Of a stretch of DNA of 64,000 nt, positions 361 to 7,350 are shown piece by piece. This DNA comes from Mariniflexile fucanivorans (GTDB lineage: Bacteria; Bacteroidota; Bacteroidia; Flavobacteriales; Flavobacteriaceae): the NCBI RefSeq assembly GCF_004341235.1, contig NZ_SLUP01000010.1, positions 1 to 64,000 on the forward strand. The letters run 5' to 3'. A program made the position numbers and the translations under genes. The notes beneath the pieces were generated by a model. The model searched no databases. It saw only the letters and a list, made by a program, of their open reading frames with translations, and was not told where the DNA came from. Position 1 is the first letter of the stretch, and the number at the start of each line of letters is the position of its first letter.

Positions 361-362
361 GA

Positions 363-408
363 TGTTACTTATAGTCTTTGATTTATAGTCAACAAATCAT
401 CAAATTTG
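363..408 (+). promoter_or_regulatory. Double C-box operator and promoter of the controller gene
   Basis: Two operator copies are visible: TGTTACTTATAGTC at 363-376 and ATTTATAGTCAACA at about 381-394. They flank a -33 box TTTG (377-380), which is followed after 20 bases by a -7-like box CAAATTTG (401-408, consensus TAnnTTTG). The distal site would activate, and the proximal site, between the -33 and -7 boxes, would repress. This is the known logic of C-protein autoregulation, and the motif closely resembles published C-boxes of the GACTTATAGTC type. Transcription would start about at the GTG at 414, so the mRNA is probably leaderless. Confidence 0.75.
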
Positions 409-413
409 TATTT

Positions 414-632
414 GTGGAAATAAAATCTAAAATAGGTAATCGCATCAAAGAATTGAGGGAAATCAAGCAGATGTCCCAAAAGGATCTGGCTTATTCGGCT
501 GATTTAGATAGAAGTTATATTGCGAGTGTGGAAAATGGAAAAAGGAATATTTCTATTGTCAATATTGAGAAAATTGCTGTGGCGCTCGGAGTATCATTAA
601 AAGAATTTTTTAATAAACAAGAATTCAATTAA
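414..632 (+). CDS. Controller (C) protein of a restriction-modification system, XRE-type HTH
   Basis: This 72-residue protein is almost entirely one Cro/C1-type helix-turn-helix. The recognition helix lies around residues 32-44, followed by the segment GKRNISIVNIEKIA, which is very typical of C proteins that time expression of restriction genes. I chose the GTG at 414. A TTG at 378 is in frame but lies inside the -33 box and between the operator copies, so it cannot be the start. Two operators precede the gene and a third sits at the methyltransferase start (3347-3364). Its stop codon overlaps that of the convergent nuclease gene. Unlike most C genes, it has no restriction gene downstream on its own strand. 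Confidence 0.85.
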   Translation: MEIKSKIGNRIKELREIKQMSQKDLAYSADLDRSYIASVENGKRNISIVNIEKIAVALGVSLKEFFNKQEFN

Positions 633-1588
633 ATACTTAATTTTATATTTTCAAAAATTAGCATTATTTCTTTTTCATTTTTAATATAAATTTCGAAACG
701 TTCTGTTCCAATACTTCCTTTTTTCTTTTGACCAGGTCTAATCCTATCATCAATAACTATATTTTTTAAAGAGGTAATTGAAGCAATATTAGTGTTAATT
801 TGTAGAAATGCCTTGCGTCCTGTCTTTCCACCAAATCCCATTACTGAAAAAGTCTCTTTTTTTGTTGACAATTTAACTTTTGTTTGTTGTATTTCGATGA
901 TCAAATCACTTTTTGATTTGAGAAGTTCATAAAAAATATAAAACAATCTTTTGGCTTCGGGTTTTTTATGAAAAAACATATCTATTTCGGTAGGAACATC
1001 GTTAGTTGGCTTATTATCAATTATAGCTTTAATTTTTTCTATTTTTCTTGTATTTTCTCTCTCCAAAATTTCGAGAGGATCATTATTCAAATAATCTATC
1101 AACAATAATTCTTCTTCAAACCATAAATAACGTATAAGAGTTATTCTACCTTCGCTTTTACTGGCTTTTTGAATATCAGTTTGTGAAAATTGTTTTGCAA
1201 TCATAACTAATTCTATCTCTTTTTTTACGTCCGTATAATTAGGAAGTTTTATTCCAAATTTTTGAGAAGTAAGAAGATAGATTTCAGCAAAATTATCTTC
1301 AACAAAATCTTTATAATCGCTCGCCTGATTTCGAATATTCTTATCAGAATTCTTTTTTAATTCTATTATTACAAATGTTTTAGATTTGGTGTTAAAAGCC
1401 AAAATATCAATTCTGCCAGATGTCCCTTTACTTCTTACATTTCCGTCTAACGTAAACTCGCTCGATACATAACTAAATTGAGGGAAAAAATTATTCCAAT
1501 TTTCTGAAAGAAATTTATTCAGTTCATTCTCTGACTTATCAATAGCTTGTAAAAATTTTTTATTCGAATTTGAAAATAATCTTATCAC
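629..1588 (-). CDS. PD-(D/E)XK nuclease with C-terminal DUF5655-like domain
   Basis: The 319-residue product has an N-terminal nuclease core of the NucS/Mrr-like PD-(D/E)XK type: Asp61 in GRIDIL, then Glu76-x-Lys78 in IIELKK. The C-terminal third (about 200-319) looks like a DUF5655 domain, often joined to such nucleases. It starts at GTG and overlaps the end of the upstream small gene by 29 bp, so the two are translated from one message, probably together with the methyltransferase. It is the best candidate for the endonuclease of this island, but placing it behind the methyltransferase rather than behind the controller is unusual. It could instead be a repair or defence nuclease that joined the locus later. 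Confidence 0.7.
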   Translation of the reverse strand: MIRLFSNSNKKFLQAIDKSENELNKFLSENWNNFFPQFSYVSSEFTLDGNVRSKGTSGRIDILAFNTKSKTFVIIELKKNSDKNIRNQASDYKDFVEDNFAEIYLLTSQKFGIKLPNYTDVKKEIELVMIAKQFSQTDIQKASKSEGRITLIRYLWFEEELLLIDYLNNDPLEILERENTRKIEKIKAIIDNKPTNDVPTEIDMFFHKKPEAKRLFYIFYELLKSKSDLIIEIQQTKVKLSTKKETFSVMGFGGKTGRKAFLQINTNIASITSLKNIVIDDRIRPGQKKKGSIGTERFEIYIKNEKEIMLIFENIKLSI

Positions 1589-1994
1589 TTTTTATTTTAT
1601 TTGAAATATATTTTTCTATTTTGAAATAATCCTCCTTATAATCTATTACTCCAAGTCCTTCACCCAATTCATCATATCTCGAAAAAAGTATCGATTCATC
1701 ATCTTGCAATAAAAAAAAACGGTTTTCATCGGAATAAATTTCGTTTAACGATTGTAAGGTATGAATTCCTGATCCATCGAAAAAAACATTATCCATTATT
1801 TCTGTTAAAATGTGAATAGGTGGATCGTTTTCTAACTCCTCTTCATCAATGATGTAAACAAATTTATTAAAACCAAACTTATTGTTCATTATTCTGGCTA
1901 AAACGGCACAACCTCCATTATTAAGATCGCCAATATCGCGATTGAGATTCCTTGCCAATTTTTCTAAAAAAAATATGATGTAATCACGGTGCAT
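1560..1994 (-). CDS. Small protein with Cys-His-Asp pattern, possible papain-like fold
   Basis: This 144-residue protein belongs to no family I can name with confidence. An N-terminal helix is followed by NNGGCAVLA (Cys29), HILTEIM (His61) and a hydrophobic strand ending FFDGSG (Asp73). The order Cys at a helix start, His at a strand, then Asp-Gly recalls small papain-like or transglutaminase-like domains seen near phage and defence genes. That function is inference. Its ATG overlaps the methyltransferase stop by 11 bp, and its end overlaps the nuclease start by 29 bp, so the three genes form one tightly coupled unit. No signal peptide or membrane segment is visible. Confidence 0.55.
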   Translation of the reverse strand: MHRDYIIFFLEKLARNLNRDIGDLNNGGCAVLARIMNNKFGFNKFVYIIDEEELENDPPIHILTEIMDNVFFDGSGIHTLQSLNEIYSDENRFFLLQDDESILFSRYDELGEGLGVIDYKEDYFKIEKYISNKIKSDKIIFKFE

Positions 1995-3339
1995 ATTGAG
2001 AGTAATTTTTTTCCAAAATAGGCGATGCAGTTTTTGAATCAGTATGATATGGAGTGATAATTCTTAATCTATTGTTTTCAATATCTTTTTGGCTTTTAAA
2101 CTGCGATATTTTATAGACTGGTTTGGTTACACTTTTTTCGATTTGAAACGTTCCATTTTCTGTTGTTTTTGTGTAAAATCCATCCTGTTCGATTGTTCCA
2201 TCAACGAAAAACACTTCATCTTTCAATGTAGCGATTCCGACTGCAATATTGAATAATTGTTTTATTGGAGTTCCAATAGTTTCAATTATCCGAATGTTTT
2301 CTTGCTCTTTGGTTTTTAATAATCGCCACTTTTTTACATTGAGATTTTTAATTTGATTTGGCGAACCATTTGCAGAAATCAAAAAATCATCACAAGCTTG
2401 GTCGTTTTTGATTTTGTCATAGAGTATTTCTTCGTTTACCTTTTTGTTCACAAATGATATTGCTGTATAGGTTTGTGCATCAAATACTTTTTTGTGGCTA
2501 AAATCAATTACTCGTGTCAAACACTTGTTTTGAAGGAAATATTGGCGAAGTGACAAACCTGCCAATGAAGTGAAATAATTATTTGGTGTTATGTAGCCCA
2601 ATCTTCCATCTAATTCTAAAAGTTTGTGTCCTAACTCGAAGAATGCAAAATACAGATTGAAAGTTCCACTTTCTATTGTTTTCCAATGACGAATCAAATA
2701 TTTTCGGTTTTCATCTGATAAATCTTGATACTTTACATAAGGTGGATTACCAACAATAATTTCAAATTTGGTTTTCCAGTCCGCTTTTAAACTGTCCTGA
2801 TGGTAAATGTTGAAATCTGAATCTTCGATTTTTTCATTATTTAATAAACCGAAGAGAGACAAAATAATTTTGGAACGTTTTACATTATAATTTAAAATGT
2901 CTGAACCATAAATATTTTCTTTGATGGTTTCTTTGACGCTTTTATTATGATGCTTTTTATAATATTCAGCCAATCCTATTAAAAACGCTCCACAGCCACA
3001 ACTTGGGTCTAAACATTTATCATTTGTTTTTGGGGAAACTTCATTTATTATAAAGTCCACAACATATGTAGGAGTAAAGAATGCTCCATTTACTTTTCTG
3101 TCGTTTTTTGGAATTAAAAGCTCCAAATAATTTTCCAACAATTTGAGGTCGGTTATATCGAGAGTTGAAATTTGAAGATATATTTCTGGGTTTGGAATGA
3201 AGCCTTTTAATAAGTCCGAAATGATTGGGCTTTCATTTAAATCAAGTTCTTTATTTTGAATAAAAGAATAAATAAGATGTTGCTCAATAAGATTAATTTC
3301 TTGAGAGTTTATCAGTTCGTTAATAATTCCTTTATTCAT
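1984..3339 (-). CDS. N6-adenine DNA methyltransferase, gamma class, C-terminally short
   Basis: From ATG 3339 the protein has 451 residues. Features in order are an N-terminal helical part, GAFFTPTYVVDFI, SAM motif I DPSCGCGAF (about 111-119), catalytic NPPY (about 198-201) and part of a target-recognition region. It ends soon after RIITPYHTDSKTA. Related Eco57I/PaeR7I-type enzymes continue past this point with a conserved Tyr/Leu/Arg-rich tail that is absent here, so the gene may be truncated. The frame extends upstream to 3456, but a controller operator lies 8 bp before 3339, which favours the shorter start. It should protect host DNA at an unknown site if still active. Confidence 0.8.
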   Translation of the reverse strand: MNKGIINELINSQEINLIEQHLIYSFIQNKELDLNESPIISDLLKGFIPNPEIYLQISTLDITDLKLLENYLELLIPKNDRKVNGAFFTPTYVVDFIINEVSPKTNDKCLDPSCGCGAFLIGLAEYYKKHHNKSVKETIKENIYGSDILNYNVKRSKIILSLFGLLNNEKIEDSDFNIYHQDSLKADWKTKFEIIVGNPPYVKYQDLSDENRKYLIRHWKTIESGTFNLYFAFFELGHKLLELDGRLGYITPNNYFTSLAGLSLRQYFLQNKCLTRVIDFSHKKVFDAQTYTAISFVNKKVNEEILYDKIKNDQACDDFLISANGSPNQIKNLNVKKWRLLKTKEQENIRIIETIGTPIKQLFNIAVGIATLKDEVFFVDGTIEQDGFYTKTTENGTFQIEKSVTKPVYKISQFKSQKDIENNRLRIITPYHTDSKTASPILEKNYSQYAP

Positions 3340-3346
3340 TTTTAGT

Positions 3347-3364
3347 TGTTGACTATAAGTAACA
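3347..3364 (-). promoter_or_regulatory. Single C-box operator at the methyltransferase start
   Basis: Read on the minus strand the site is TGTTACTTATAGTCAACA. Its first 14 bases are identical to the distal operator of the controller gene, and its end (ATAGTCAACA) is identical to the proximal one. It lies 8 bp upstream of ATG 3339, so bound controller protein should repress the methyltransferase, as known for other C-regulated systems with a single operator at the M promoter. Confidence 0.7.
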
Positions 3365-3415
3365 AAACTATCTCTTTTATTTTGAATATCCAAATTATTG
3401 TGTGGGGAAATTTTA

Positions 3416-3500
3416 GCTCTTTTGGTTTTTAGAGCGTTGGCTTTATGTGGTGGCAAAAACCGAAAGTGCTAAAATTTGCGTTGGCGTTTTTCGGACGGAT
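3416..3500. repeat. GTTGGC-rich flank of the restriction-modification-like island
   Basis: The stretch holds GCGTTGGC twice and a GTGGTGGC, with a CCGAAA/TTTCGG pair between them. A similar, more diverged stretch lies at about 290-360. I infer a degenerate direct repeat around the island. The match is loose. Confidence 0.3.
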
Positions 3501-3679: not shown

Positions 3680-3728
3680 AAAACCCACAAAAAAAACTTT
3701 ATTTATAAGGTTTTTTTTGTGGGTTTTT
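3680..3728. terminator. Strong bidirectional hairpin terminator
   Basis: The left arm (3680-3699, AAAACCCACA then A-rich) pairs with the right arm (3707-3728) over about 20 bp, with a six-base loop and a T run. The complementary strand has the matching A/T tracts. It lies 125 bp beyond the stop of the exported fusion gene (minus strand). Confidence 0.75.
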
Positions 3729-6531: not shown

Positions 6532-7299
6532 CTATTTTCTACCACGTTTCTTTTTAACAATAACTTGTTTTGCTTTTATACGCACAAAAATAAGTTTATG
6601 GCGACTTTTTGGGTTTTCCCGTTGATCCAACTCAAAAATATCAATCGATTTTATTAGTGGCGTTAACTTATCAAAACCAAAATTTCTAGAATCGAAGTTG
6701 GGTTGTTTTTTTTGTAATAAACTGCCAACATCACCAAGAAATGCCCAACCATCATCATCGGAAACATCAGAAATGGTGGTTTTAATTAATTCGATATCTT
6801 TTGGGGTGATGCTGTCAACATGATTTTTAGATGCATCCAGGTCAACGTTTTCTCTGTCTGCTTTATTTTTTAATATTTCTACGTAAATAAATTTATCGCA
6901 AGCCACTATAAAGGGGTTGGGTGTCTTTTTTTCACCAATACCAATCACCAGCATGCCAGCTTCTCTTAACCTAACTGCCAATCGTGTAAAATCGCTATCA
7001 CTTGAAACCAAGCAAAAACCATTTACTTTGCCAGAATACAACACATCCATAGCATCAATAATCATTGCAGAATCGGTAGCGTTTTTTCCTGTGGTGTAGC
7101 CGTATTGTTGAATAGGAGTAATGGCATTTTCTAGCAATAGGTTTTTCCATTTAGAGAGGTGCGGTTTGGTCCAATCACCATAAATACGTTTGATGGTTGG
7201 GTTGCCGTATTTGGCAATTTCTTCCATCATTTCCTTTACGTGCGCAGATGGGATGTTATCCCCATCAATAAGTACTGCTAAGTTTATATTTGTATCCAT
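6532..7299 (-). CDS. NYN-domain (LabA/DUF88-like) RNase with LOTUS/OST-HTH domain
   Basis: From ATG 7299 the product has 255 residues. The N-terminal half is a NYN/PIN-like nuclease domain: LAVLIDGDNIP with an acidic pair near residue 10, KNATDSAMIIDAMD in the middle and LVSSDSDFTRL after it, all typical active-site acidic residues. A C-terminal winged-helix OST-HTH/LOTUS domain (roughly 165-245) probably binds RNA. Proteins of this build are widespread in bacteria, and an RNA-processing or RNA-decay role is inferred. A TTG at 7318-7320 extends the frame by seven residues but adds nothing conserved. It sits alone between two copies of the direct repeat. Confidence 0.8.
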   Translation of the reverse strand: MDTNINLAVLIDGDNIPSAHVKEMMEEIAKYGNPTIKRIYGDWTKPHLSKWKNLLLENAITPIQQYGYTTGKNATDSAMIIDAMDVLYSGKVNGFCLVSSDSDFTRLAVRLREAGMLVIGIGEKKTPNPFIVACDKFIYVEILKNKADRENVDLDASKNHVDSITPKDIELIKTTISDVSDDDGWAFLGDVGSLLQKKQPNFDSRNFGFDKLTPLIKSIDIFELDQRENPKSRHKLIFVRIKAKQVIVKKKRGRK

Positions 7300-7350
7300 G
7301 TATTTTAGTGTTGTGTGCAACAGTGAGTAGCAAAAAGTATTTTTAAAAAG

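Follow-up and report, generated by a model that had tools for sequence, protein, structure and literature searches.

The controller (C) gene in the window, by which we mean the whole stretch of DNA analysed (the first 64 kb of one contig, from a genome of 4.7 Mb), probably belongs to a C-protein cassette that works like that of Esp1396I and is fitted to the primary-sigma promoters of Bacteroidota. On sequence grounds the circuit is a variant of the C-protein circuit, with the same pattern across many species, and it suggests how a known switch was adapted to another transcription machinery. The present analysis adds how widely and how strictly the fit holds, a third operator (OM), the weak and strong -7 boxes, and a Glu-to-Lys change in the C protein; a preliminary description of this DNA had missed OM and the absence of the usual endonuclease from the window. 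The C promoter and its gene comprise the following features.

363 to 380, plus strand: OL, the distal C-operator (TGTTACTTATAGTCTTTG), with a good left half-site; 14 of 14 bases agree with OM; kept across the 81 loci compared
377 to 380, plus strand: -33 box TTTG, where OL and OR meet; TTTG in 75 of 81 loci
377 to 394, plus strand: OR, the proximal C-operator (TTTGATTTATAGTCAACA), with a good right half-site; 13 of 13 bases agree with OM
401 to 408, plus strand: -7 box (CAAATTTG; consensus TAnnTTTG); TTTG here in 71 of 81 loci
413 to 414, plus strand: predicted transcription start, at the GTG or one base before it, 4-5 nt past the -7 box
414 to 632, plus strand: C gene, GTG start at 414-416, 72 aa, HTH_3 domain, Lys23 where known C proteins have Glu

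Direct reading of the plus strand gave TGTTACTTATAGTC at 363-376 and ATTTATAGTCAACA at 381-394, which confirmed the earlier claim that two C-box sites flank TTTG at 377-380 and that the second lies between the -33 and -7 boxes. The two operators that mark a C-protein gene are found at 363-394, 5' of the gene, and in the relatives, and the TTTG at 377-380 is the -33 element that marks a Bacteroidota primary-sigma promoter. The -7 box had also been assigned to 401-408; its place stood, while the full match with TAnnTTTG did not, T-12 being missing: the first position (-12) is C instead of T, and five of the six fixed bases match. Bacteroidota primary-sigma promoters resemble the C promoter (PC) in their TTTG boxes and in a start 4-5 nt past the -7 box (PMC6847099, PMC7366714, PMC9723704), which has been placed at -12 to -5 (PMC9723704). 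The same distance in F. johnsoniae is the basis of the start predicted at 413/414 (PMC6847099), and the C mRNA is predicted to be leaderless, beginning at the start codon or no more than a base or two from it. Leaderless C mRNAs are already known from several sigma-70 systems (PMC4824078), so this feature is not new.

The short C-box alone was within chance, with three matches (at most one mismatch) in the 64 kb against a shuffle mean of 4.1, and was therefore never used by itself as evidence. Beyond chance were the arrangement and the bases held in common with a third site at 3346-3364, which amount to all 14 for OL and all 13 for OR. Of 395 genomes sampled from the phylum, three had the two-box pattern and none the reversed control pattern; the three are the window, L082 and L084, and a homologous C gene follows in the latter two. 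The strict two-box pattern is widespread in the phylum, yet not common. Rfam and tRNA searches of the window returned no matches.

The third operator lies at the methyltransferase gene, within the following features.

3347 to 3364, minus strand: OM, a single C-operator (TGTTACTTATAGTCAACA) with 0 mismatches, over the predicted start at about 3358 and upstream of the ATG at 3339
3363 to 3370, minus strand: -7 box of the methyltransferase promoter (TAGTTTTG), its last TG common to OM
3391 to 3394, minus strand: TTTG as -33 box for the methyltransferase promoter, separated by 20 nt from its -7 box

OM is a near-perfect palindrome that joins the good half of each upstream site, counting the OM edge. 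In front of it stands a full consensus Bacteroidota promoter, TTTG-N20-TAGTTTTG, whose transcription start is predicted at about 3358, inside OM. This methyltransferase family was found on the minus strand in 62 loci, in eight of which its 5' end falls at the edge of the available DNA. An operator with at most four mismatches overlapped the -7 box in 53 of the 54 testable loci (52 tabulated loci plus L002), L045 having no operator; three mononucleotide shuffles (734 kb) gave 16-23 scattered matches at the same mismatch level. At other methyltransferase types, an OM-like site was present in two of four loci of cluster 9 and none of five of cluster 4. Among the 52 tabulated methyltransferase promoters (PM), TAnnTTTG was complete in 48, T-12 was present in 50 and A-11 in all, and 37 had an exact TTTG 18-20 nt upstream of the -7 box. 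At PC, the -12 base was T in 3 of 81 loci and G or C in 70; the difference in T-12 between PC and PM (3/81 vs 50/52) gave a Fisher p of 2e-30, for loci that are non-independent. In F. johnsoniae, unlike at these C promoters, T-12 is nearly invariant, and most mRNAs there have leaders (PMC6847099). The contrast suggests that the C promoter is kept weak and needs help, whereas the methyltransferase promoter would be strong until C arrives.

From the sites, spacings, conservation and gene order read in the DNA, we infer that the C protein should bind the boxes and should first activate and then repress. A C dimer at OM would lie across the methyltransferase promoter's -7 element and transcription start and so repress that gene. 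A dimer at OL (centre about -41.5), just upstream of the -33 TTTG, would help sigma on a weak promoter without T-12, and a higher level of C would fill OR (centre about -27.5), cover the -33 box and let C shut itself off. In most relatives the endonuclease follows C and would come late, the methyltransferase promoter being strong from the outset. In the window, without the usual endonuclease, the only targets left to the circuit would be C itself and the shortened methyltransferase together with the ORFs that follow it.

To follow this arrangement in other genomes, a peptide-pattern scan of 84,980 species genomes was used, which found 175 relatives; the best 80 of the 175 were retained and make 81 loci with the window. 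By their labels, 74 of these best 80 belong to Bacteroidota and three to Ignavibacteria or Chlorobiota, and three further ones come from MAGs labelled Phycisphaerales or Acidobacteria. The MAG loci (L065, L074 and L080) carry the cassette, with binning errors possible; the -7 TTTG of L080 and the -33 box of L074 both read TTCG. The spacing of the operator boxes was 14 bp in 80 of 81 loci. A second TTTG followed exactly 24 nt after the first in 71, and both boxes were exact in 66, one or both being missing in the other 15. An in-frame ATG or GTG stood at offset 46-50 from the TTAC of OL in 73 loci, offset 48-49 being the expected place of the transcription start; the exceptions were L014, L015, L063, L065, L068, L075, L079 and L081. 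L065 and L081, which were kept in the counts and the tree, have a stop in frame at C codon 22 and retain operator and promoter. L014 and L015 are a pair of C loci on a single chromosome (CP058707.1), separated by about 14 kb, and in both the frame to the expected start is broken. The preliminary description proposed a search for the same motif spacing beside such controllers near methyltransferases, and this check held: most of the 80 further loci keep it, with a methyltransferase-like ORF nearby in 74 of 81 (crude motif scan and clusters).

Conservation was compared in 3011 locus pairs of at most 85% protein identity (mean 75%). Results showed 96% identity for operator bases and 94% for the eight TTTG/TTTG bases, against 36% at four-fold sites of the C gene and 34% in free spacer. 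The promoter bases are therefore constrained nearly as tightly as the operator, and by this measure constraint, not descent alone, is behind the kept operator and TTTG bases. The central claim of the preliminary description, that the control circuit was fitted to a TTTG/TAnnTTTG promoter, is thus supported by comparative sequence evidence across 81 loci.

The operator had further been described as the same as that of sigma-70 systems. It is related, but not identical: pEsp1396 has boxes 15 bp apart and a CGTG linker, the window clade 14 bp and a TTTG linker, and the 15 bp spacing is found also in L097 and L098 and, by eye, in L101 and L105. Twenty plasmid comparator regions were hand-picked, not random, and 12 with a recognised box were counted (seven Pseudomonadota and five Bacillota, with L094 and L095 recognised by eye only; the other eight went uncounted); none of the 12 had a TTTG linker. 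Three other sources of candidates were set aside. Viral contigs gave eight relatives at 37-42% identity, with no C-boxes seen upstream of five of the eight; phage records gave 52 matches, of which 15 were listed, every one below 60% identity; and a Dyadobacter plasmid C gene, found with a C.Esp1396I fragment, had no clear operator by eye.

The overall plan is that of Esp1396I, whose C protein is homologous. There C is followed by the endonuclease, convergent with the methyltransferase, as in most relatives (PMC4041747), and as in the window clade three operators are present, OL and OR serving the C promoter and OM lying where the methyltransferase begins (PMC4041747, PMC3758141). The pEsp1396 sequence itself has C-R convergent with M and three sites. 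Esp1396I differs in using sigma-70 promoters and an activating Glu, where the window clade has Bacteroidota promoters and Lys. Known C promoters also offer a model for the two upstream sites: in C.PvuII, C.AhdI and C.Csp231I, OL activates and OR represses, and the OR of PvuII, like that of further C promoters, overlaps the -35 hexamer, a position taken by TTTG in the window clade (PMC3695507, PMC4824078). These three systems use -35/-10 promoters, unlike the window clade; the C.Csp231I operators differ, and OM is not common to all three.

The window itself, unlike Esp1396I, has no endonuclease gene, and its methyltransferase is followed by two other ORFs.

629 to 1588, minus strand: nuclease-like ORF, 319 aa, weak HSDR_N_2 match and PADLOC PDC-S18 (phage-defence candidate); at the place of the relatives' endonuclease, on the opposite strand
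1560 to 1994, minus strand: 144-aa ORF of no confident family; together with the nuclease-like ORF, at the place of the relatives' endonuclease gene and methyltransferase 3' end
1984 to 3339, minus strand: methyltransferase gene (Eco57I/N6_Mtase), 451 aa, lacking the last approximately 174 residues of the relatives

In most relatives the C gene stands beside an endonuclease and a methyltransferase. In 64 of 81 loci C is directly followed, in the same orientation, by a gene of one endonuclease family, a member of which matches PADLOC REase_II. Of the seven loci without a methyltransferase-like ORF, five end within 1.9 kb of C, and L057 and L062 extend farther. At the DNA level the window resembles its relatives over 261-611, with C and its promoter, and over about 2011-3480, with the methyltransferase, but not in between. 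These features raise the alternative that the local circuit is left over from a restriction-modification system since lost, or now serves new targets, the two ORFs that follow the shortened methyltransferase, and we lean slightly towards it for this one locus. The usual endonuclease gene had no match in the window or, in a search run without a positive control, in the genome; the methyltransferase stops at residue 451, against 625 in relative L004; the minus-strand ORFs overlap and run in one direction behind PM/OM; and in L037 a counterpart of the nuclease-like gene (69%) comes after an endonuclease truncated at about 150 residues. On the other side, neither the C ORF nor PC is damaged and OM is free of mismatches, which fits recent loss equally with continued use. 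The window shows the switch's promoters well, but not its usual job. C and promoter of this form also adjoin methyltransferases of clusters 3, 4 and 9, which BLAST did not link to the main one; the module thus appears to have been passed from one system to another.

Gene content varied further among the loci. L129 encodes, at 1498-2454, a full-length relative (45%) of the 319-aa nuclease-like protein amid ordinary-looking genes, and no restriction-modification genes were evident around it in the ORF list. L004, L006, L010, L045 and L056 have a second endonuclease-family ORF after the first, about 1.0 kb after C. L036 and L053 have two extra ORFs (301 aa with a methyltransferase-like motif, and 521 aa) between endonuclease and methyltransferase, about 1.0-3.5 kb after C.

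The C protein was compared with those of known systems. The proposed 72-residue controller starting at GTG 414 is a small protein with a single HTH domain and has homologues among known C proteins; its nearest solved relatives are C.BclI (4.8e-15), C.AhdI (6.1e-15) and C.Esp1396I (2.3e-10), and PADLOC matched it as Control_protein (2.8e-25), while no NCBIfam C-protein model scored above its cut-off for the window. At the DNA-contact positions examined by mutation in C.Esp1396I (Y37, R46, T36 and S52; PMC4041747), Y37 and R46 are kept in 81/81, the T36 place is Ser in 80 and Thr in one, and the S52 place is Asn in all 81. The left half-site of the window clade is TAC, where C.Esp1396I contacts GAC (PMC3758141). 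Because of these residue and base changes, DNA recognition appears related to that of C.Esp1396I but not identical.

A larger difference lies at the SQE patch in helix 2, which is held to contact sigma-70 region 4 at R588 (PMC4824078). Its activating Glu is Lys (SQK) in 80 of 81 loci, a figure that applies to this close set because one of the six peptide patterns used in selection contained the Lys. The lone exception, L079, also carries a CCGTTG linker. The window clade thus lacks the Glu of the patch, but SQE occurs in most, not all, C proteins and is not strictly defining (PMC4824078). Glu was present in 11 of 11 C proteins from other phyla and in 11 of 11 more distant Bacteroidota C proteins read (nine, plus L124 and L126), and a TTTG linker was in none of the upstream regions read among these 22. 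A separate class sample held a C homologue (E 1e-15 or better) in 16 of 395 genomes, four of the Lys/TTTG form including the window and 12 others at 47-57% identity; the 11 of those 12 that were read (L127 excepted) have Glu and linkers other than TTTG. A near-exact pattern search of this class sample found three loci and missed L115, which is of the Lys form. TTTG stands 4-5 nt before the start codon in L116, L119, L120, L124 and L125, and in Glu-type locus L119, read by hand, OL is one base farther from the promoter. The Lys form is a single clade on a 106-row tree, with one change (SH-aLRT 83); the tree was built from 72 columns with the trait column retained, and has 53 of 98 inner branches weak and long branches among the Glu rows. 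Lys, the 14 bp spacing and TTTG therefore appear to arise on one stem, which puts their coupling beyond testing by counting.

The change from Glu to Lys means that activation may be changed or lost. One explanation, which we regard as unlikely, is that the clade only represses, C acting as autorepressor and methyltransferase repressor at a weak constitutive PC with a true TTTG -33. The near-uniform Lys, set against Glu in both comparison groups, suits such a loss, and so does replacement of SQE in C.Csp231I, which abolished activation, though binding too (PMC4824078); yet OL, which stands where an activating site usually does, is no less strictly conserved than OR, and the avoidance of T-12 at PC suits a promoter in need of help. 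The window genome encodes a 287-residue sigma factor resembling those of other Bacteroidota, which, with the nearest relatives of its C protein, points to a host in this phylum. Ten Bacteroidota sigma sequences from nine genomes retain R588 of sigma-70, and at the place of residue 592 in sigma-70 numbering they have E in nine and D in one. As a tentative and rather doubtful proposal, the activation interface may have been rewired on one branch, Glu becoming Lys, OL moving one base nearer RNA polymerase and the linker turning into a genuine -33 TTTG; the C protein would then touch the Bacteroidota sigma by an opposite-charge contact, for example with the acidic residue at 592. If true, it would be a case of a cI-like activator fitted to this phylum's divergent sigma factor.

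It is very improbable that the TTTG at 377-380 is only an OR half-site and that the true promoter lies elsewhere and yields an mRNA with a leader: these bases do fall within the operator, and a -33 motif is hardly visible in F. johnsoniae promoters (PMC6847099, PMC7366714), but OM, a site for the same protein, carries TGTTACT rather than TTTGATT at that place, the 12 boxed comparators do without a TTTG linker, the second TTTG 24 nt away (71/81) lies outside both operators, and in 37 of 52 loci the -7 box of the methyltransferase promoter is itself preceded by a TTTG at 18-20 nt. Weighing against an Esp1396I-like cassette on Bacteroidota promoters, which we still favour, are Lys for Glu, Asn for S52 in all loci and TAC for GAC, the 15 loci without the exact TTTG pair, the lack of OM in L045 and its absence or partial presence at two other methyltransferase types, and the one shared ancestry of all loci.

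Among the literature matches listed there was no report of this Bacteroidota operator-promoter, the C-box survey of Sorokin et al. 2009 lying outside that scope. An earlier published C-type gene in the phylum is the C-REase fusion of Niabella (Bacteroidetes), a PvuII-type fusion whose activity test used a cyanobacterial member in E. coli; the parts of that paper available to us do not treat its Bacteroidota promoter (PMC3850674). The loci described here offer a natural set of probably activator-dependent promoters in Bacteroidota, a phylum whose -33 element one global study barely detected (PMC6847099) and another could make out (PMC7366714). The sigma-70 version of the switch has solved protein-DNA structures, so a base-by-base comparison is possible. 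The Esp1396I-like cassette would also show how restriction systems bring a timing circuit into bacteria that do not express E. coli genes (PMC6847099).

Two further features were noted in the window. A 23-nt inverted repeat with a 2-nt loop (3680-3727, 96% complementary) is a possible terminator, and 6532-7302 encodes a protein with NYN and OST-HTH/LOTUS domains.
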